DNA from: Rhodocyclaceae bacterium
GTDB taxonomy: Bacteria; Pseudomonadota; Gammaproteobacteria; Burkholderiales; Rhodocyclaceae
DNA length: 64,000 bases
Direction: 5' to 3'
Assembly: GCA_018883265.1 (NCBI GenBank)
Contig: VEQK01000006.1
Span: 1 to 64,000, forward strand
Of this stretch, positions 7,020 to 64,000 are shown piece after piece. Position 1 is the stretch's first letter; every line of letters starts with the position of its first letter. Both the position numbers and the translations under genes were made by a program. Under the pieces are notes generated by a model. That model was not told the DNA's origin. It saw only the letters and a list, made by a program, of their open reading frames with translations, and ran no database searches.

Positions 7020-7044
7020 AAAAAAAGCAGGTCTCACAACCTGC
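7020..7044 (-). terminator. Rho-independent terminator
   Basis: A 6-bp stem GCAGGT/ACCTGC (7027-7032 and 7039-7044) is followed on the minus strand by at least six T. It lies 34 nt after the stop of the small gene at 7078-7272 and gives it a complete single-gene unit together with the FNR box upstream. Confidence 0.65.
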
Positions 7045-7077
7045 CCGCAAATGTTTCCCAAGCCATCTACCGCTTCT

Positions 7078-7272
7078 TCAGATGCGCTCCGTGACTTCAT
7101 CACAAGGACGCAGCAACTGACCCGAATCGGACTCAACGGCTCTGACGGAAAAATTCGGGAACGAACACCGGATCAATCGGATATGACTCAGCACATCATC
7201 TCTCGACGCTTCCAGGGACTCATAGAAAGTCCACTGTCCCGTTCTCAAGGCCATGATCTCAATGTTATACAT
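7078..7272 (-). CDS. Small protein of 64 residues under a predicted FNR promoter
   Basis: I chose ATG 7272 (MYNIEIMALRTGQW) because GGGAGA lies 5-6 nt upstream; an ATG at 7284 would add four residues and precede that ribosome site. The product is soluble with no signal peptide and two Cys (IRCSFPNF and RPCDEVT). Similar small proteins exist in other bacteria but I know no function. A perfect FNR box is centred about 93 nt upstream and a terminator follows, so this looks like an independent, oxygen-responsive gene on the minus strand. Confidence 0.65.
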   Translation of the reverse strand: MYNIEIMALRTGQWTFYESLEASRDDVLSHIRLIRCSFPNFSVRAVESDSGQLLRPCDEVTERI

Positions 7273-11361: not shown

Positions 11362-13352
<1,991 letters not shown>

Positions 13353-56717: not shown

Positions 56718-58120
56718 TTGACGTTGGCTCCGGGTAGATCAGGCAACTCCTGACGACCGTTCGGTAGATTAGCGGGGGTGTGCTGCGCCACGGGCGAATC
56801 GTAATGCGCCGGCTTGGTCAGGGTCACGGATTCGGTCAGACTCGCGAGAATGCGGATAGCACCGGAGGCTCGTGCGGCTTCGGCACGGGCAATCACAGCC
56901 TCGACTTCGGCCTGGCGCACGATACGTTTGGTATCCAGATATTCAAAGGTGCTCATCGCGCCACGAGTGTAGGCGACATCGGCAGCCTTATCCGTGCGGC
57001 GGGTGGACTGCAATGCCATCTCATGCAGGCTACGCAGGCGGGCATTGGCCTGATCGAGCTCGTGAATCAGTAGCTTCGATTCCGAGCGCGCGTTGCGTTC
57101 GGTTTGCAGCATGGCAATTTCGGCCTGAGTCATCTCGGCCATGCTGCGCCGGATATCTCCCTCGAAATCGTTGCCGGTGAAGAGCGGGATCGCAATACCA
57201 CCGCCCACCGAGTTGATGACCGTCGGGTTGTTTCGCTCGTAGTGCACCCCCACCGTAAAGTCACGGGTGCGTTGCGCGCGCGCCAGTTCGATGGCCTGCT
57301 TGGCGGCAGAGAGCCGGGCGCGGGCGGCCTGCACATCTGGGCGTTTCTCGGTTGATCCATCCAGTAGTTTTTCGGCATCCTGGTGGCTCATGGCCGGTGG
57401 CCAGTCACCCCGGGTATTCAATAACTGATGCTGCATCTCGTGGCCAAGCAGGCTGGAGAGCATTGCGCTGGCGCGTGATCGGTCACGCCGTGCCATCTGC
57501 GCTTCTGCTAGCAGCCGGGCGCTATCGGCCTCGATGCGACCAAGATCAGCACCTGATAAATCACCCGTCTTGAAGCGGAGCTTGGCCTTTTCACTTACGC
57601 GCTCCGCATGTAACAGATTGGCTTCCGAAATCTGGGCGCGCTGTTCCGCAACCCGCAGGTCCAGCCATGCGGACAGCACCCGCATTTTTTCCTGACGTAT
57701 GGTCTCCTGCAGATCCCACAGGGTGGCCTGGTTCATGTCATTGGCTTTCGCCAGGCGCAGATCCCGTTTGTTGCCACGCTCAAAGGGTTGATCAACCCGC
57801 ACGATCGTGTCCAGCGCGTTCATCTTGAGACCGTACTGATACTGGGAGTTATCGACGCCGCTGGTATTCACCGACATCACGGCATTGGGCCGTGCGCCGG
57901 CGGTGATGATATCGGCGCGGGCGCCTTCGATGACTGCCTGGGCATTCTGGATCTGGGCGTTATGGCGCAGCGCCAGATTTTCGGCTTCCAGATACCCAAT
58001 GCCGACCGGCTGTGAATCTGCCTGTGCGCCGATGGCGATCATGAGCAAAGACGCAAGGAGACCGCCGACCAGGCATTGTCGGACGAGTTGATGAGCGCTA
58101 CGGGAATTTCTATGATGCAT
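56714..58120 (-). CDS. czcC: Outer-membrane channel of the metal RND pump (CzcC/TolC family)
   Basis: The TolC-family channel forms the exit through the outer membrane. ATG 58120 (MHHRNSRSAHQLVRQCLVGG) gives a clear signal peptide (LVGGLLASLLMIAIGAQA); the frame extends 19 residues further upstream, into the regulatory repeats. The mature part has paired OEP repeats (about 50-230 and 260-450). The first gene of czcCBA, with a candidate response-regulator site 17 nt before the ATG. Confidence 0.88.
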   Translation of the reverse strand: MHHRNSRSAHQLVRQCLVGGLLASLLMIAIGAQADSQPVGIGYLEAENLALRHNAQIQNAQAVIEGARADIITAGARPNAVMSVNTSGVDNSQYQYGLKMNALDTIVRVDQPFERGNKRDLRLAKANDMNQATLWDLQETIRQEKMRVLSAWLDLRVAEQRAQISEANLLHAERVSEKAKLRFKTGDLSGADLGRIEADSARLLAEAQMARRDRSRASAMLSSLLGHEMQHQLLNTRGDWPPAMSHQDAEKLLDGSTEKRPDVQAARARLSAAKQAIELARAQRTRDFTVGVHYERNNPTVINSVGGGIAIPLFTGNDFEGDIRRSMAEMTQAEIAMLQTERNARSESKLLIHELDQANARLRSLHEMALQSTRRTDKAADVAYTRGAMSTFEYLDTKRIVRQAEVEAVIARAEAARASGAIRILASLTESVTLTKPAHYDSPVAQHTPANLPNGRQELPDLPGANVK

Positions 58121-58136
58121 TGCGCGCTTATCATGC

Positions 58137-58153
58137 CTTAAGGAAGCCTTAAG
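58137..58153 (-). promoter_or_regulatory. CTTAAG-N5-CTTAAG response-regulator box
   Basis: Two CTTAAG hexamers are separated by exactly 5 bp (11-bp period), the spacing bound by OmpR-family regulators such as PmrA and QseB. Each hexamer is palindromic, so direction is not set. The box lies 17 nt before the chosen czcC start. No two-component genes are in the window. Confidence 0.5.
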
Positions 58154-58187
58154 GTCTATTCGCAGCGCACCACGCAACAGAAACGAA

Positions 58188-58215
58188 AAGGCCCCAGATT
58201 TGACTCTGGGGCCTT
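58188..58215 (-). terminator. Terminator left from the tRNA-Asn gene
   Basis: An 11-bp stem (AAGGCCCCAGA / TCTGGGGCCTT) is followed on the minus strand by TTTTCG. It lies 6 nt beyond the CCA of the tRNA-Asn fragment and would have ended the original tRNA transcript. Confidence 0.6.
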
Positions 58216-58220
58216 GTGTT

Positions 58221-58266
58221 TGGCTCCTCGACCTGGGCTCGAACCAGGGACCTACGGATTAACAGT
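58221..58266 (-). pseudogene. 3' fragment of tRNA-Asn (GTT), attachment site
   Basis: The 46 nt correspond to the 3' half of tRNA-Asn from the anticodon loop (CTGTTAATCC) through the T loop (TTCGAGC) to the encoded CCA. The 5' half is absent, and AT-rich sequence leads into a tyrosine recombinase. This is the pattern of an integrated element boundary whose intact tRNA should lie at the other end, beyond the window. Confidence 0.85.
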
Positions 58267-58343
58267 ACTTAAAAAACGCTTTTCCCGTCTGCTCTCCGAG
58301 GGCGTGATACGCTGGAACCCGCGTGTTTGCTGACCCTCTTGTA

Positions 58344-58374
58344 AACATTAATAAGTGTGTGTTAAATTAATGTT
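58344..58374. promoter_or_regulatory. Inverted repeat upstream of the integrase
   Basis: AACATTAAT and ATTAATGTT form perfect 9-bp arms around a 13-bp spacer, about 55-85 nt before the integrase start. This is a candidate operator, or a recombinase/excisionase arm site. Confidence 0.45.
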
Positions 58375-58384
58375 GAGATGTTTG

Positions 58385-58404
58385 GGTAGGCAGAAGGTAG
58401 GCAG
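58385..58404. repeat. Direct repeats GGTAGGCAG upstream of the integrase
   Basis: Two copies of GGTAGGCAG (58385-58393 and 58396-58404) start 11 bp apart, one helical turn, between the attachment site and the integrase gene. Candidate binding sites for integrase or excisionase. Confidence 0.45.
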
Positions 58405-58427
58405 TTTTGATCACACAGGAGAAACGC

Positions 58428-59828
58428 ATGGAAAACGCACAAGCTCGGGCTGCAACCCGAGGCGACAGCGACAAAGAGAAGACGACGCTCGCAGACCCTC
58501 GGCACGTCAATTTCACGAACGCATTCATTAAAGAAGTCCCGCTGCCCAAAACAGGGCGCGAACATTACTGGGACACCAAAGAGCGCAACCTCGGTTTACG
58601 GGTAACGCCTCGGGGTCGCACCCTCATTATTCGCGTCCGGGTGACGGGTGAGAATTCGAGCAAGGTAAAGGAACGAAATCTCGACGAGCAAAACGACGTT
58701 AAGAAAGCTCGCGACGAAGCCGCTGCGCGACGTGTAGAGCTCCGGAATGGTATTGACCGGGACGAGGAGAGAAAACGCGCTGCGGATCGAATGCACAAGG
58801 AAGAGGCCCTGCGTAAGATCCAGAAGGTAACCCTAGAACAGGCGCTCGAGAATTACATCGCAGCCCGTGCCGAAGGTAAGCCTCTGGGCGACCGCACGAT
58901 CGCCGACTATCGGTACATGATGCGCGGAATGCTGGCCAAGGTTAAGGACGTACCCCTCGAAGAATTCACCCGGCCTTTCTGCGTCGCGCTGATTAAACAA
59001 ATAACTGCTGATATCGTCAAGCGGAGCCAGAAAAGCATTAAGGCGAGCGGTGCCGAGGATCGCAAAGAGCGAACCGGCGTCCGGGCGAATTACGCGCTCC
59101 GGTTGATTCGGCTGCTCTGCCGCACTTATCGGATCGGGAATCAGGAGTGGGGTAAGTTCGAGGGCTTCGACTTCCCGTGGCACGAAGAAAATCCAAGAGT
59201 AACCACCCTCGATAGTGAGTACAACCACGGGACAGCGATATGGAATGCGCTCTCATCGCATCGATGCGACTCGGGTGCGAATTACATTAAAGCTATTCTG
59301 CTGACCGGTTGTCGCCGTAGCGAGCTGTCTGGGTTAAAGGTCGAGCAGGTTAATCTCGACAAGCGGACGATCACGCTGCCGACCACGAAGAACGGGACGG
59401 AGTTTGTTATCCAAATGAGCGACCAGCTCGTCGAGCTCATTACGCCCCTGATGAAGCACGCCGAGACGCGTAAGAATAAGAAACTAGACCGCGCTGGCGA
59501 AGACAAGCTCCCCGGCGAGAAGGTTTTTTCCGGAGCAGGGGATCCGCGTAAGCTCTTGCTCGCTGTCGGCAAGGTGATCGGCGAAGAGTTCACGCTACAC
59601 TCGCTGCGAAAGTATATGACCGACTCAATGATGAGTCTCGGCGTGCCTTACCCTGTCATTAAGTCATGCCTTAACCACAGCATGAAGAAGAGCCGGGACG
59701 TAACGCTCCGCAATTACGCCCACGCAAAGCCAGGGCAGATGCGCGCAGCGTGGCAAAAACACGCCGACGCCGTGGTGCCTACGACTGCGGAAATTATTAA
59801 CCTCGACTCGCGCCGGAGCGCAGCATGA
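58428..59828 (+). CDS. Tyrosine recombinase (integrase)
   Basis: The 466-residue integrase has an N-terminal arm-binding region, a core-binding domain (about 125-215) and a catalytic domain with R296 (TGCRRSEL), H391 and R394 (HSLRKY), H417 and nucleophile Y430 (RNYAHA). ATG 58428 has AGGAG upstream; a TTG at 58407 would add seven residues. It lies next to the tRNA-Asn fragment and should catalyse integration and excision of the element. It overlaps the next gene by 4 nt. Confidence 0.93.
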   Translation: MENAQARAATRGDSDKEKTTLADPRHVNFTNAFIKEVPLPKTGREHYWDTKERNLGLRVTPRGRTLIIRVRVTGENSSKVKERNLDEQNDVKKARDEAAARRVELRNGIDRDEERKRAADRMHKEEALRKIQKVTLEQALENYIAARAEGKPLGDRTIADYRYMMRGMLAKVKDVPLEEFTRPFCVALIKQITADIVKRSQKSIKASGAEDRKERTGVRANYALRLIRLLCRTYRIGNQEWGKFEGFDFPWHEENPRVTTLDSEYNHGTAIWNALSSHRCDSGANYIKAILLTGCRRSELSGLKVEQVNLDKRTITLPTTKNGTEFVIQMSDQLVELITPLMKHAETRKNKKLDRAGEDKLPGEKVFSGAGDPRKLLLAVGKVIGEEFTLHSLRKYMTDSMMSLGVPYPVIKSCLNHSMKKSRDVTLRNYAHAKPGQMRAAWQKHADAVVPTTAEIINLDSRRSAA

Positions 59829-60331
59829 GCAAGTACAAACTCAAACGCTTAATTGACCAGTTCACCGAAAACCCACGGGAGCACCAAAACGCGAGCAACG
59901 TGCGCCGTCTCTACGACGACAAGAAAAAGGAGCTCCGGGTCGAGACCGCTCTGCCGAGCGTTAAGGAATTCGAGCGGCGAAAGTTCCGTTTCGGCACCGC
60001 TTCGGAAAGCTGGGCCGCTCTGCACCAGATCGCGAAGGCAATAGAGGAGGGCAAGCCCATCCCCGCAGTCCCGGCGGTTTGGTTACTCTCTGCACTCAAC
60101 GCCATGGCCGAGGATAGTCCGAAGGAGCTCGTCCGGGCACTCGGCTTTGTGCAGAAGGGGAGATCCCGCACGCTTAATCATTTCGACGTGCTCAACCGCA
60201 TGGCGTTTTTGATTGAGAAGGAGGGGCTTCCGCAGACCGAAGCGGCCCGAGTTTGTGCGAGTGAGTTCGGCTGTCACTTCGAGACGGCGCTCTATTACTG
60301 GCGGAAAAAACGGGACGTTTTCTCAAAGTAA
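59825..60331 (+). CDS. Unknown mobile-element protein, paralogue A
   Basis: A 168-residue basic, soluble protein coupled to the integrase (ATGA). Its region from GTASESWAALHQIAKAIEEG to ETALYYWRKK aligns along its length with the product at 60711-61061 (GTVTESWAALESLAEALMKG to KTAYRWYRAE), so the two are paralogues. The C-terminal part (TEAARVCASEFGCHFETALYYWRK) resembles a helix-turn-helix. No family recognised. Confidence 0.7.
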   Translation: MSKYKLKRLIDQFTENPREHQNASNVRRLYDDKKKELRVETALPSVKEFERRKFRFGTASESWAALHQIAKAIEEGKPIPAVPAVWLLSALNAMAEDSPKELVRALGFVQKGRSRTLNHFDVLNRMAFLIEKEGLPQTEAARVCASEFGCHFETALYYWRKKRDVFSK

Positions 60332-60461: not shown

Positions 60462-60686
60462 ATGACAAAGAAGCAAAACAAGGCGGTAACAGTCGACCTC
60501 AATCAACTGCTCACAGTGCAAGAGCTCTGCGAGATCCTGCATTGCCACCCGGTAACGCTCTGTTACCACCGCCGCAACAACACCGGACTGCCGTTTATGA
60601 AACTCGGTCGCCGCGTTTACTACCGCCGCGCTGACGTTGAGGCGCTCCTCGCGAGCAACTTCCGTGGCGTACCGGTCGCAGCCTAA
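60462..60686 (+). CDS. AlpA/Xis-like helix-turn-helix protein
   Basis: The 74-residue product has a MerR-like HTH_17 domain (LLTVQELCEILHCHPVTLCYHRR, LPFMKLGRRVYYRRADVEALL). Such proteins in mobile elements act as excisionases or integrase activators. GGAG lies upstream of the ATG. It is the first gene of the second transcript and is followed by paralogue B. Confidence 0.8.
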   Translation: MTKKQNKAVTVDLNQLLTVQELCEILHCHPVTLCYHRRNNTGLPFMKLGRRVYYRRADVEALLASNFRGVPVAA

Positions 60687-60710
60687 ACATTGATCACACA
60701 GGAGAAAACA

Positions 60711-61061
60711 ATGGGAACATATTCACCAAAGCCCGGAACAGTTACGGAATCATGGGCCGCGCTTGAAAGCCTAGCCGAAGCGCTCATGAAAGGAGCGACA
60801 CCTCCGAAAGCCGCCGCAAAATGGTTTGCAGAGGCGGTTACACACAGCCGCAGCCGCGACCCGCTACAGCTCGTTCGCGATCTGGGGCTCTACGTTCACG
60901 GACGCCGCCGTGTTGCAAATGTTGAGCGCCTCACCGAGCTGGTTAACAAGCTGATCCAGAGCGGTAATTCAATCATGCACGCTTGTGAATTGGCCGCTGC
61001 TCGCATGGGTTGCTCAACCAAAACCGCATACCGCTGGTACCGCGCGGAGGTGAAGAAATGA
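60711..61061 (+). CDS. Unknown mobile-element protein, paralogue B
   Basis: A 116-residue protein homologous to paralogue A but without its N-terminal 55 residues. It ends with a helix-turn-helix-like segment (HACELAAARMGCSTKTAYRWYR). ATG 60711 follows the leader TTGATCACACAGGAG, shared with the integrase. It overlaps the next small gene by 4 nt. Confidence 0.65.
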   Translation: MGTYSPKPGTVTESWAALESLAEALMKGATPPKAAAKWFAEAVTHSRSRDPLQLVRDLGLYVHGRRRVANVERLTELVNKLIQSGNSIMHACELAAARMGCSTKTAYRWYRAEVKK

Positions 61062-61216
61062 AGAAGTTATCGCAAGGAGGTGCTCGTGAGGGAGCAGGTC
61101 ACAAGCTCTTATACGGGGAAGAGACAAAGTGCATGCGCGTGCCGGTTAGCCGCGTGGCCGCAGTCCGAGCCTTTTTGTACTCGCTGCTCGACGAAGAGAG
61201 AAAAGCCAAACGCTAG
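61058..61216 (+). CDS. Small basic protein with GGAREGAG motif
   Basis: A 52-residue protein (MKKLSQGGAREGAGHKLLYG, MRVPVSRVAAVRAFL). The glycine-rich GGARxGAG motif followed by a MRVP strand recurs in small phage and plasmid proteins of unknown function. Its ATG overlaps the paralogue B stop. Confidence 0.6.
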   Translation: MKKLSQGGAREGAGHKLLYGEETKCMRVPVSRVAAVRAFLYSLLDEERKAKR

Positions 61217-61281: not shown

Positions 61282-61329
61282 ATGACTAACGACATTTTAA
61301 CCCCGACTAATTGGTGCCGCAATGCGTAA
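61282..61329 (+). CDS. Putative 15-residue leader peptide
   Basis: An ATG at 61282 follows CACACAGGAAAG, a variant of the shared leader, and encodes MTNDILTPTNWCRNA. Its stop overlaps the ATG of the next gene at 61322, so it could couple translation. It may be chance. Confidence 0.3.
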   Translation: MTNDILTPTNWCRNA

Positions 61330-61516
61330 GCACGAGCGGATCCTCACCAAGCTGGCCAATGAGTGCCGCGCCGTGCTGTCAAAAACCAACGGCGGGCACA
61401 TGAAGCTCACAGGGGACGGGTGGACTGTTTTCACATCCTCGACCCCGAGCGATCACCATTCAATTAACCAAGTCCGCCGCGATATCCGTCGCGCTCTGCG
61501 GGAGATCCACGCATGA
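61322..61516 (+). CDS. HicA-like small protein
   Basis: A 64-residue protein (RAVLSKTNGGHMKLTGDGWTVF, SSTPSDHHSINQVRRDIRRAL). The GGHxKL strand and SSTPSDH resemble HicA-fold proteins found in phages and islands; HicA toxins are mRNA interferases using a His in this position. No HicB antitoxin is seen, so it is not called a toxin-antitoxin pair. ATGA overlap with the next gene. Confidence 0.5.
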   Translation: MRKHERILTKLANECRAVLSKTNGGHMKLTGDGWTVFTSSTPSDHHSINQVRRDIRRALREIHA

Positions 61517-64000
61517 CAACAATTACAGTCGCACAGTTACCACCCAACGCCCGGGCATACATTGAATGCCCGTCTTCCCTCGATATCAAAGACGCTCCGG
61601 CGGATATGCGTACAAGTGGGAGCAAGATCAAAGTCGCGCCTAGGCTCTGCAAGCTGATCTCACCCAAAGGCGAGAAGCTCTCACAGTACGCCTCGGGGCG
61701 GGAATTCGTTTTTTCCCGTCACGAGGTAGAGACGCTCCCGAAGCTTTACGAGCTTCTGCAAGTCTGCTCACGCCATGATCGAGTGATCGTTATGGGAGTA
61801 GCCACAGGGGAATGGTTAGAGCACCCCAAGGCCGCGTATCGTCGCCTCTCGATAGGTAAGCACGGGTTATGGAAACACGAGGACGGCAGGGACGTCCCCT
61901 GCGTTATCGATATGCCACCGAGCCGCCTCCTGACCATTGATATTGACGGCTGCAAAGAGAATCAACCGCTGCCGGATTTCGACCCGCTTAACCCGATCCC
62001 GGCAATTAACGCCCACGTCCTGCCATTACTCGGAGAGGCGTTTACGGATTGCGGGTATATCGCCAACCTGACCGCAGGGACAACACTCGACCCAGAGCAA
62101 TTTCCCCGCATTCGCCTCTGGTTTTTGATGAAGAACGAGCTCTCGGAGCAAGGGCGCAAAAACCTTCTGATTAACCTCGCAGCGACGACCCCTGATCTGG
62201 CCATTGACCCGAGCTCGGTAAAAGCCGCGCAGGTTAATTACACCGCTTCGCCGATTGTCGTCCCGGAGTTGACCTTCGACACGCTGCGAGACCCCCTCGC
62301 ATACGCACAGGAAGACATTCTGCCGCGTCGCTGGTTTATGGTTGAGGGTAACCCCTTGGACGTAGCCGAGCCGCACGTTGTAGAGCGTGGGGTGAGCTCG
62401 TCGGGCAATCAGGACTTCAACCTCTACGCGGTAAACGAAGAGTTAAACGCCCTAGAAACTCCCGGGGACGAGATCCACAGCAAGATCCTGACCTGTACTT
62501 ACAACCTCGCGCGCAACCACGGCACCGGGCTATCGACCGAGAACGCCGTCGCGATGATCAAGCGCCGCCTCGTTGAGCTATCGCAGCCGGGGGAGCCGCT
62601 GCACTCACGAGCTGATCGGATAAACGGCGCAGACTTGGAGCATGAAATCACCAGCGCCTACACCGGAGCTCTGGATATGAGCGGCTGCTTGCGTCCGCTT
62701 CACGTTATCGACGACGAAGACGAGGGGAGCACCACGTTAAGCGAGGCGGCAATGCTGCTTAAAGACACCCTCAAAGATGCGCTGTCAAATCGTAGCCACA
62801 AGGTGCACGTCATTAAGTCGAGCTGCGGGCTCGGGAAAACTCGCACCATGCTGGAGACCATTAAAGAAGACGGCGGCGTCTGTCATTTTTACGTCCCCGA
62901 CCATAACAAAGCCGCCGAGCTAGTCCGCGACGCCCGGGCGGCTGGCATCGAGACTGTGCACATCAAGGGTAAGACCGGTCTCGACGATGATGACAACCCG
63001 CTCTGCATGAAACGCGAGGCGCTTTTAGAGCACCCCGGCTCGGAAGAGTTTCAACACATTGGCGGCGTAATGGTTTGTAAGAATTGGCGCTCGGGTGGGT
63101 TTAATGCGAGCAGTTTTGACGAAGAGGACGGAAAAGGCGGGGAGAGCTACTGCCCGCATTACAACGAGTGCGGATATAACGCCCAGTTCAAACAACAGGC
63201 CCAGCTCTACGTCTTCGCCCATGCCAATCTGACACACACATCAAAACTCGGCTTAAAGCGCCCCGACTTCGTCGTCATTGATGAGGATCCGATCCCGGCA
63301 CTGACCAAAACCCGACGTTACAGACTGGAAACGCTAAAACGCTGGCGTTTTATCAGCACGCGCCGGGTTATCAACCGCCTTTGCCGCGCATTGTTTGAGG
63401 GTAAGGACTTACTCCAAGCGTTTTACGAGTGCGCGGAAGAGTATCGCAAGGAACACGGCCTAGACGGCGAACAGGGGCCGGAGATCGGTCTCGACGGAGA
63501 GCTCTACGAGAGCGAAGACGAAGCAATGGATCTCGACGAGGTCGCGGAAATGCTCCTCAATCGACTGCGTGGGCAAGCCTACGCCGCGCTCCGTGAGGAC
63601 GCCGGTAACCTAGACCCTAGCATGACCCCCGAGGAGACCCTCCGGCGCGTCAGTAAGGAGCGAATCTCGGCACCATGGGTGGATCTCTTCGATTTGCTGC
63701 AAAAAGCCTTACAAAACGACGAGAGCACCTTGCCGGGCGTTTATAAATTACACGACGGGAGCATTCTCGTCGGATCCATTAAAGCGCCAACCGCCCCCAT
63801 GGGCAAAAAGGTGATCCTCCTCGACGCAACCCCGAACGTCATCGCTTTGCGCTCGATCTACGGGGATCGCTTCCGTCTGGTAGGGTTTTCGGTAAAGGAG
63901 AACCTTTTCGAGATCCAGATCGCAGCCCGTGGATTCGGAAAAACCGCGATGGTTAAAAAGGTCGAGGGTGAGACCGCCGGGCACGATAACCGCGTTAACG
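61513..64000 (+). CDS. Primase-like/Fe-S helicase-like mobile-element protein, truncated by window
   Basis: The frame is open from ATG 61513 to the window end (at least 829 residues). The first ~420 residues hold LLTIDIDG (D143, D145) and RIRLWFLM with DPSSVKAAQVNYTASP, resembling archaeo-eukaryotic primase-type domains of mobile elements. A helicase-like region follows: Walker A CGLGKT (G439-T443) and Walker B FVVIDEDP (D590-D592). Between them C498, C522, C547 and C553 and the phrase VFAHANLTH match the layout of XPD/DinG Fe-S helicases. Likely the element's replication protein. It overlaps the upstream gene by 4 nt. Confidence 0.7.
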   Translation, partial: MTTITVAQLPPNARAYIECPSSLDIKDAPADMRTSGSKIKVAPRLCKLISPKGEKLSQYASGREFVFSRHEVETLPKLYELLQVCSRHDRVIVMGVATGEWLEHPKAAYRRLSIGKHGLWKHEDGRDVPCVIDMPPSRLLTIDIDGCKENQPLPDFDPLNPIPAINAHVLPLLGEAFTDCGYIANLTAGTTLDPEQFPRIRLWFLMKNELSEQGRKNLLINLAATTPDLAIDPSSVKAAQVNYTASPIVVPELTFDTLRDPLAYAQEDILPRRWFMVEGNPLDVAEPHVVERGVSSSGNQDFNLYAVNEELNALETPGDEIHSKILTCTYNLARNHGTGLSTENAVAMIKRRLVELSQPGEPLHSRADRINGADLEHEITSAYTGALDMSGCLRPLHVIDDEDEGSTTLSEAAMLLKDTLKDALSNRSHKVHVIKSSCGLGKTRTMLETIKEDGGVCHFYVPDHNKAAELVRDARAAGIETVHIKGKTGLDDDDNPLCMKREALLEHPGSEEFQHIGGVMVCKNWRSGGFNASSFDEEDGKGGESYCPHYNECGYNAQFKQQAQLYVFAHANLTHTSKLGLKRPDFVVIDEDPIPALTKTRRYRLETLKRWRFISTRRVINRLCRALFEGKDLLQAFYECAEEYRKEHGLDGEQGPEIGLDGELYESEDEAMDLDEVAEMLLNRLRGQAYAALREDAGNLDPSMTPEETLRRVSKERISAPWVDLFDLLQKALQNDESTLPGVYKLHDGSILVGSIKAPTAPMGKKVILLDATPNVIALRSIYGDRFRLVGFSVKENLFEIQIAARGFGKTAMVKKVEGETAGHDNRVN

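Follow-up and report, generated by a model that had tools for sequence, protein, structure and literature searches.

The 64,000-nucleotide stretch of Rhodocyclaceae DNA analysed here (contig VEQK01000006.1, hereafter the window) ends within a gene whose product is probably a primase-helicase replication protein of an integrative mobile element, in which an integrase and an AlpA-like regulator are followed by the fusion gene. From an ATG at 61513 on the plus strand the frame is open through the window end and up to contig position 64938, and encodes 1141 residues in full, 829 inside the window and 312 outside it. The initial annotation had placed the gene at 61513-64000, which is right as far as it goes and incomplete, since the ORF reaches position 64938. 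The motifs that it had claimed (a DxD, RIRLWFLM, a Walker A, VFAHANL and a DED Walker B) were all located by script in the order given, VFAHANL at residues 567-573, and its four cysteine numbers are exact by the same means. Beyond the window, the script placed GRLRAV from residue 968, inside QSRGRLR (965-971). The features are the following:

58407..59828, plus strand: tyrosine integrase (PF00589, E 9.6e-15; phrog_1, E 2.1e-32), ATG 58428 being the likely true start
59825..60331, plus strand: small ORF of no confident family (Pfam, PHROG)
60462..60686, plus strand: HTH_17, AlpA/excisionase-like regulator (PF12728, E 2.8e-11; phrog_66, excisionase and regulator, E 6.3e-6)
60690..61061, plus strand: small ORF with weak HTH matches below cut-offs (Pfam), ATG 60711 being the likely true start
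61010..61216, plus strand: small ORF, phrog_21736-like (E 9.1e-7)
61322..61516, plus strand: small phrog_2053/2089-like ORF (E 3.9e-8) that overlaps the fusion gene's start
61513..64000, extending past the window to 64938 of the contig, plus strand: primase-like/helicase fusion gene (ORF)
61513..62712, plus strand: N-terminal AEP-like region, residues 1-400 (eight-row alignment A7)
61939..61947, plus strand: D143-x-D145 (in TIDIDG, 141-146), AEP motif I-like, invariant in 8/8
62107..62130, plus strand: RIRLWFLM, residues 199-206, at the place of AEP motif II (alignment)
62206..62208, plus strand: D232, candidate third catalytic Asp, invariant in 8/8
62827..62841, plus strand: Walker A, GLGKT, residues 439-443
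63004..63006, plus strand: Cys498, first of four conserved cysteines (two alignments)
63076..63078, plus strand: Cys522 (two alignments)
63151..63153, plus strand: Cys547 (two alignments)
63169..63171, plus strand: Cys553 (two alignments)
63274..63288, plus strand: Walker B, VIDED, residues 588-592
63817..63831, plus strand: LLDAT, residues 769-773, at the place of SF2 motif III, with conserved Asp771

Comparison of sequence profiles and predicted models shows the C-terminal half to be an XPD/DinG-type SF2 helicase that has a four-cysteine insertion between motifs I and II. The conserved residues K442, D590-E591 and Q965/R969/R971 correspond to the Walker A, DE-type Walker B and QxxxR-type motif VI of an SF2 core. 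A profile of the helicase family aligned with XPD 4a15 (chain E 3.5e-4, stretch E 0.0084), Cys1 and Cys2 facing cysteines, and with DinG 6fwr (E 0.0021) over a range that includes Cys3 and Cys4. AlphaFold models, built from small alignments of 20 and 18 rows, were obtained for the window fragment (pTM 0.50; pLDDT below 50 in 267 of 829 residues) and for a complete relative (pTM 0.75). Foldseek placed DinG 6fwr (E 8e-7) and then XPD 3crv (E 3.7e-6) at the top for the window model, and all six matches at E<=0.001 were DinG, XPD or CasDinG; the best ten for the relative, with E from 4.8e-11, were DinG, XPD, CasDinG and one chain of a pre-initiation complex, presumably Rad3. VIA-align superposed the window model on DinG 6fws_B (Z 16.3, rmsd 5.8, 283 aligned), and for the relative's model DEAD-box proteins stood merely one to two Z units under XPD/DinG. 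The PADLOC type IV DinG model matched residues 29-205 of the Zeimonas relative (E 3.8e-5); its match to the window protein, from Walker A to Walker B, is weak (E 0.047), and the other two of the four proteins given, from JX202564 and Skermanella, were without any match at E<=0.1. Conservation of the cysteines and the best Foldseek matches therefore make an XPD/DinG-like helicase of this half, and the earlier proposal to that effect is borne out by profile alignment, by the AlphaFold check with its Foldseek and VIA-align comparisons, and by PADLOC for the Zeimonas relative.

Searched at E<=5, the window protein had no match to Pfam DEAD_2 (PF06733), and neither did any of 13 genomes, its own among them; Helicase_C_2 did not match the window protein, which also scored under the ResIII/DEAD cut-offs that some relatives exceed. 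As a single query against the PDB, the protein gave nothing under E 0.36. In the PDB profile matches Mfd (E 1.5e-4, slightly ahead of XPD), RecG and NS3 also appeared, and they were not taken as kin because their matches are confined to the Walker A region.

The four-cysteine pattern between Walker A and Walker B is confirmed, by sequence comparison, to exceed chance. In an alignment of 19 modules, the window protein included and two of them truncated, Cys1 is present in 17/17, Cys2 in 18/18 and Cys4 in 18/18 of the modules reaching the column, and Cys3 in 17/18, the exception being Sulfitobacter, with an alanine and a cysteine nearby. Alignment A6, from which the window protein is absent and which overlaps the former in at least Zeimonas and near copies of two others, has all four cysteines invariant in 18/18 rows, and the profile derived from it recovers the window gene with an E of 1.2e-61. 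In the window model residues 524-545, between the cysteines, have a pLDDT <50.

From a sequence perspective, the N-terminal half is probably primase-like, and may represent a divergent archaeo-eukaryotic-type primase (AEP) with Asp143, Asp145 and Asp232 as metal ligands. The three aspartates are invariant in alignment A7, and three recognised domain types (Toprim_3, Prim-Pol and BT4734-like) occupy the same place in relatives; on these grounds the assignment is held to be probable. It is held no higher because the classic motif II sxH histidine of the AEP superfamily is replaced by arginine in the window protein and because profile and fold searches gave no match. The N-terminal region had no match among Pfam, PHROG, NCBIfam (a scan of two proteins) or PDB profiles, no curated AEP model recognised it, and the initial proposal of a primase-like domain fused to a helicase holds firmly for the helicase part only. 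In the window model the order of strands and helices at residues 139-231 fits an RRM-like palm; the helicase filled the rows of the fold searches, and VIA returned no AEP row, which counts neither way. The motif II residue is Arg in the window protein, Skermanella, G1025, L031 and L048, and His in Zeimonas, a B. safensis plasmid and L045. Relatives of the N-terminal region stand in L017, L011, L023, L045, L031 and L048, and as a separate ORF in L032/L007. Profile comparison matched this AEP-like set with neither the Prim-Pol nor the BT4734-like domains that relatives carry, and a single family for the three is not claimed.

The strongest evidence on function comes from modular fusions, which, read from sequence, point to replication. 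In relatives, which form a scattered family carried by plasmids and mobile elements, the helicase module is fused to a Toprim_3, Prim-Pol, BT4734-like or window-type N-terminal domain, or stands alone, and the helicase tree requires 13 changes of the N-terminal label where the minimum possible is 4. Eight scanned relatives (L009, L014, L016, L018, L019, L033, L036 and L037) are without a primase domain; the tree labels of this class were partly Pfam-scanned after the tree was made, L009, L014, L016, L018, L019 and L033 being then confirmed, and L046 carries an unassigned label in the tree although a BT4734-like match was found. Ten rows were left out of the tree: five presumed duplicates (L032 with a 100% match; L028, L034, L038 and L041 with equal scores or the same species, unaligned), two truncated rows (Falsihalocynthiibacter and Methylorubrum), L049 for its position at a contig end, and both halves of L043. 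A 4,170-bp circular plasmid record, typed as non-mobilizable, has one of the relatives as its sole annotated gene. Zeimonas arvi encodes the AEP-like region and the helicase in two overlapping ORFs, placed after ORFs that read as an integrase and an AlpA-like gene, and on Skermanella pSR-5 an annotated AlpA-family gene also lies upstream of the relative.

Single-sequence searches were nearly blind to these relatives. Among 395 genomes of the Rhodocyclaceae family only the gene itself was found; pattern scans of viral and genome contigs with the window protein, and of viral contigs with two relatives, gave no relative, and a tblastn search of 50,697 phage records gave none either, whether the query was the window protein or the Zeimonas helicase. 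The whole JX202564 protein matched 4,254 plasmid and 106 phage records, searches used solely for choosing longer plasmid matches; the 40 phage matches listed of the 106 all fall within query residues 7-424, mostly in the Toprim part. One of four class-level genome matches (G997; 50 positions, E 3e-4) reads as an ordinary DEAD-box helicase and was dropped.

As regards the chemistry of the two halves, the four cysteines may hold a 4Fe-4S cluster, and the N-terminal aspartates may be catalytic. That the cysteines instead bind zinc or nothing, the helicase being XPD/DinG-like in fold only, is unlikely: metal identity cannot be read from sequence, and a literature abstract describes a vestigial FeS domain in CasDinG, but such a reading has to accommodate four cysteines invariant throughout A6, as well as Cys1 and Cys2 opposite XPD cysteines which we take to be cluster ligands. 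We likewise give little credence to an AEP domain that has degenerated, no longer catalyses and binds only DNA or the host primase. The replaced motif II histidine and the missing profile match would suit it, whereas the aspartate triad is intact in all eight rows; the arginine form occurs in five of them, spread over at least two parts of the helicase tree, and is for this reason regarded as tolerated.

At the level of function, a primase-helicase associated with conjugation (TraC-like), priming the transferred strand rather than serving vegetative replication, is quite improbable. One relative is annotated as 'DNA primase TraC', two relatives sit 4 to 5 kb away from MobF relaxase genes, and the plasmid of a third is of the MOBF type; against this, the 4,170-bp plasmid record has no second annotated gene, 24 of 30 matching plasmid records are typed as non-mobilizable, and Pfam found a relaxase in 0 of 12 scanned neighbours of the window gene. 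A DinG-kind helicase of repair or defence on mobile DNA, comparable to CasDinG of type IV CRISPR and with an accessory N-terminal domain that is not a primase, appears very unlikely. Its fold neighbours do include CasDinG and the Hachiman helicase HamB (E 1.3e-3), the PADLOC type IV model matches Zeimonas and weakly the window protein, and the eight relatives without an N-terminal primase domain would agree with it, but two of the four proteins escape that model and the fusions to Toprim_3, Prim-Pol and BT4734-like domains point to replication.

If the protein is indeed the primase-helicase of an integrative element, the element would first be excised and the protein loaded at its origin. The helicase would then move 5' to 3' on the lagging-strand template, by analogy with DinG-type helicases, the same protein could lay primers in cis on that template, and a host polymerase would extend them. 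At most a primase and a helicase would thus share one chain; the 'single-polypeptide replisome' of the initial annotation goes too far, because no replicative polymerase domain was recognised. Directly behind the fusion gene lie two identical tandem copies of a 59-nt palindrome, which are not called an origin because the flanks of eleven relatives carry other, shorter repeats and blastn over the collected loci finds the unit in this contig only. For exact repeats of 12-30 bases, a comparison of 58000-58449 with the remainder of the contig end gave nothing beyond a shared 18-nt leader, and neither an origin nor attachment repeats were identified from relatives' flanks, repeat comparison or blastn.

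Repair, transcription and type IV CRISPR are the settings in which XPD/DinG helicases are known. A search of one literature library gave no description of the present protein. A broader reading, which we advance tentatively and at somewhat less than even chances, is that of an undescribed modular family of mobile replicons in which an XPD/DinG-type Fe-S helicase would act as replicative helicase and initiator, repeatedly re-paired with at least four primase domains, one of them a new AEP family in which His and Arg alternate at one active-site position. Were this the case, the element's replication could come under the control of redox state or iron supply. A helicase partnered with exchangeable primases would place the XPD/DinG class in replication; the family would offer a natural series of primase swaps on a single motor, and plasmids with genes annotated merely as 'hypothetical' or 'toprim domain-containing' would gain replication proteins.

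Among known systems, XPD, DinG and CasDinG share with the window protein the SF2 helicase, the four cysteines between motifs I and II and the best fold matches, while the window protein differs by its primase-type fusion, by carriage on plasmids and elements in its family and by having no DEAD_2/Helicase_C_2 match. P4-type integrative elements have a similar order of integrase, AlpA-like regulator and primase-helicase gene, but the helicase of P4 alpha belongs to SF3, unlike the SF2 helicase of the window protein. M. jannaschii Q58352 is a DinG/Rad3-type helicase. The plasmid Rep CyRepX2 (Slr6090) is described as structurally like Q58352 (PMC10899382); the word 'primase' occurs 0 times in the main text of that article, and the comparison with the window protein is by description only. 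The All3500 family of the PrimPol-PV1 supergroup is reported to consist of fusions, carried by mobile elements, of an AEP domain with a remote SF2 helicase (PMC5862659), which is its likeness to the window protein; its helicase is likened there to UL9/pVOG9714, which sets it apart by description only, and 'DinG' occurs 0 times in the main text of that article, a text search giving one match to those letters. CyRepA1 (NF042913), one of the cyanobacterial plasmid replication proteins and reported as required for replication of pSYSA (PMC9978351), likewise joins a primase and an SF2-type helicase on one chain. NF042913 had no match in the window protein or in its own genome, and CyRepA1 aligns with the helicase-family profile only around Walker A, over 46 columns, having a single cysteine between its own Walker A and B where the window protein has four.

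The fusion protein is likely a primase-helicase serving the replication of an integrative element, as judged from its sequence and predicted structure. The open reading frame starts with an ATG at position 61513 and meets no stop codon inside the window, which covers bases 1 to 64,000 of a contig of 71,917 bases (assembly size, 1.86 Mb); the frame closes at contig position 64938, and the protein has 1141 residues. All the motifs named in the initial annotation were located by position, the numbers of the four cysteines (Cys498, Cys522, Cys547 and Cys553, here Cys1 to Cys4) being exact to the residue. The motifs of both SF2 helicase halves are present, because the chain continues past Walker B with the following:

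aa 769-773: LLDAT, after Walker B
aa 888-890: VGR, outside the window
aa 965-971: QSRGRLR, outside the window

Single-sequence searches gave no significant Pfam, PHROG or NCBIfam family for the protein. The four cysteines are nearly invariant among the modules that reach the respective column in an alignment of 19 (window included, two truncated), with 17/17 for Cys1, 18/18 for Cys2, 17/18 for Cys3 and 18/18 for Cys4. They are invariant in all 18 rows of a second alignment, A6, made without the window protein, which overlaps with the former (Zeimonas is in both, and L034/L028 look like near copies of Komagataeibacter/Rhodovastum). A profile of 17 modules aligned with the XPD of T. acidophilum (4a15; E 3.5e-4 over the whole chain and 0.0084 over its main aligned stretch), placing Cys1 and Cys2 opposite XPD cysteines and, in a second, weak stretch, the "CPY" phrase of Cys4 opposite a "CPY" of XPD. 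The same profile met DinG 6fwr (E 0.0021) at profile positions 124-176, a range taking in Cys3 (127) and Cys4 (133). Since Mfd outranked XPD in this PDB search (E 1.5e-4) and RecG and NS3 came close, all three over Walker A alone, the fold was assessed independently.

AlphaFold2, run on the window fragment (829 residues) together with 19 relatives, gave a model (mean pLDDT 63.3, pTM 0.50) that is good at residues 411-500 and over most of 556-650 and poor at 511-550, which hold Cys522 and Cys547. Its six Foldseek matches at E<=0.001 are DinG, XPD, DinG, XPD, DinG and CasDinG, and in VIA-align the top 18 rows are all DinG, XPD, CasDinG or TFIIH-type complex chains (DinG 6fws_B: Z 16.3, rmsd 5.8, 283 residues aligned). 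The complete helicase of Zeimonas arvi, modelled with 17 relatives, reached a mean pLDDT of 76.7 and a pTM of 0.75, with about 87-93 in the cysteine region. Its ten best Foldseek matches are DinG, XPD, CasDinG and 5sva_Y, a pre-initiation-complex chain that we take for Rad3, with E from 4.8e-11. In VIA-align it superposed on the TFIIH-complex chain 6ro4_B at Z 16.8 (472 residues, rmsd 4.9) and on DinG 6fwr at Z 15.8 (461 residues, rmsd 4.2), DEAD-box proteins being interleaved from rank 8 (Z up to 14.9, 165 to 303 residues).

The PADLOC model of type IV DinG matched residues 29-205 of the Zeimonas helicase (E 3.8e-5) and, weakly, residues 419-591 of the window protein (E 0.047); the JX202564 and Skermanella proteins gave no match to it. 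This result makes the alternative of a DinG-like repair or defence helicase carried on mobile DNA slightly more likely and slightly lowers confidence in the replication protein; we regard the alternative as improbable. Together with the conserved cysteines, the fold and PADLOC matches make the XPD/DinG-like assignment of the helicase half the firm part of the prediction, in agreement with the initial annotation. As Pfam DEAD_2 has no match in the window protein, the helicase is placed beside that family and not inside it.

The N-terminal half is probably an AEP-like primase. A region of the window type was found in eight proteins: those of the window, Skermanella rosea pSR-5, G1025, Zeimonas arvi, a Bacillus safensis plasmid record, L045 (an alphaproteobacterial MAG), L031 (IMG/VR) and L048 (Hyphomicrobium). 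In Zeimonas arvi it is encoded on its own, by an ORF that shares 88 bases with the helicase ORF in a different frame. The primase-like reading first proposed gains from Asp143, Asp145 and Asp232, invariant in all eight, and from the order predicted in the window-fragment model, strand(DxD)-helix-strand-strand(motif II)-helix-strand(Asp), of a kind that fits the AEP palm; however, profile searches with the set of these regions gave no confirmation as AEP. Where AEP motif II would lie, the proteins of Zeimonas, B. safensis and L045 carry His, and the other five, the window's included, Arg. By reading, a second AEP-like stretch (VDLD ... SPSGTGVR) lies ahead of the window-type domain at the start of the G1025 locus, as if two primase domains were in tandem.

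The same helicase carries other N-termini: Toprim_3 in JX202564, Salipiger, Roseomonas, Roseivivax, Loktanella, L035, L040 and L043 (below the cut-off in L029), Prim-Pol PF09250 in Rhodovastum, L028, Bosea, L039, L042 and L044, and BT4734-like PF08800, an AEP clade, in L046 and L047. In L009, L014, L016, L018, L019, L033, L036 and L037 the helicase starts at most about 120 residues into the chain, and scans found no primase domain in them; L030 and L050, which have long, unassigned N-termini, gave none either. A tree of 33 helicase modules requires 13 changes of primase label against a minimum of 4, and one of 200 shuffles was as low, so the labels are more clustered than shuffled ones; well supported branches alone call for at least four changes for the window type and at least five for Toprim, gains and losses not being told apart. 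The window's nearest row is G1025 (25% identity), and its place is unsure because branches are long, its own measuring 1.85.

The gene is rare. With the own genome always included, a single-protein search found it in 2/399 genomes of the order, and 4/369 of the class matched at E<=0.001 and 7/398 of the phylum at E<=1e-10; one of the four class-level matches was discarded because it looked like a common DEAD-box helicase. Searching by pattern with alignment A3 brought in a further 19 loci from genomes and four from IMG/VR. The helicase genes of a Flavobacterium bin (L037) and a Methylotenera bin (L038) are equal in length and scores; one of these bins is probably wrong. By tblastn, the fusion protein had no match in 50,697 phage records and a single one in 72,556 plasmid records, JX202564, a 4,170-bp circular record of an uncultured bacterium. 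Its sole annotated gene, a 1074-aa "TraC", has Toprim_3 (E 3.2e-13) in front of the helicase, and the longest ORF outside it has 113 aa; a close relative of 1047 aa (L035) comes from a Ferrovibrio MAG, on a contig of 3,938 bases. The Zeimonas helicase ORF matched no phage and 30 plasmid records, whose named hosts are presumably alphaproteobacteria. The B. safensis U14-5 plasmid (NZ_CP015609.1), which carries a member of the family, is assigned to Bacillus, whereas the other named plasmid hosts are proteobacterial; the sequence may be misassigned or may have been transferred widely.

As read from its genes, the layout is that of an integrative element carrying its own replication gene. The fusion gene is preceded by genes for a tyrosine integrase (PF00589) and an AlpA-like HTH protein; by reading, Zeimonas arvi has an integrase-like ORF, an AlpA-like ORF and then the AEP-like ORF and helicase, and in pSR-5 the third gene upstream is annotated as AlpA-family. 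An 18-nt leader, identical at 58407-58424 (before the integrase gene) and 60690-60707 (before the ORF at 60690), is probably a ribosome-binding leader common to the two. Neither attachment sites nor the element's other end could be found on the contig, which ends at 71917. Behind the fusion gene, the locus (L002) holds:

L002:6954-7012 and 7025-7083 (contig 64953-65011 and 65024-65082, beyond the window): a 59-nt near-palindrome with 27-nt arms, present in tandem as two identical copies
L002:9194-9751, minus strand: serine resolvase (PF00239, E 7.3e-49), some 2.3 kb downstream of the fusion gene
L002:11784-12170 and 12167-12463, minus strand: overlapping small ORFs, presumably a HepT/MntA-type pair
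L002:12764-13777, minus strand: ORF near the contig end that resembles an integron integrase (IntI)

The first 59-nt copy starts 14 bases past the stop codon, and the pair is a candidate origin, terminator or binding site.

In the best supported mechanism, we infer that the element would first be excised, that the fusion protein or a neighbour would recognise the origin, and that the helicase, its four cysteines holding a 4Fe-4S cluster, would unwind 5' to 3' while the N-terminal domain lays primers on the same strand. DnaB has 5' to 3' polarity, and DinG and CasDinG are reported to move likewise; because the polarity is the same, the fused primase would follow the lagging-strand template. The single-polypeptide replisome proposed earlier goes too far, since no replicative polymerase was recognised in the fusion protein.

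Mobile-element primase-helicases are already known, and the fusion protein would be one with an XPD/DinG-type motor. Searches of a PMC text collection that covers few subscription papers found no description of such a helicase fused to a primase, which does not prove novelty. The nearest systems described are AEPs joined to remote SF2 domains that Kazlauskas et al. (2018; PMC5862659) compare with UL9, CyRepX2 (PMC10899382) and CyRepA1, a primase-helicase Rep shown to be required for pSYSA (PMC9978351), which the profile of the window's helicase family meets only around Walker A; the SCCmec pair (PMC7581432) is of a different kind from the XPD/DinG-type primase-helicase.
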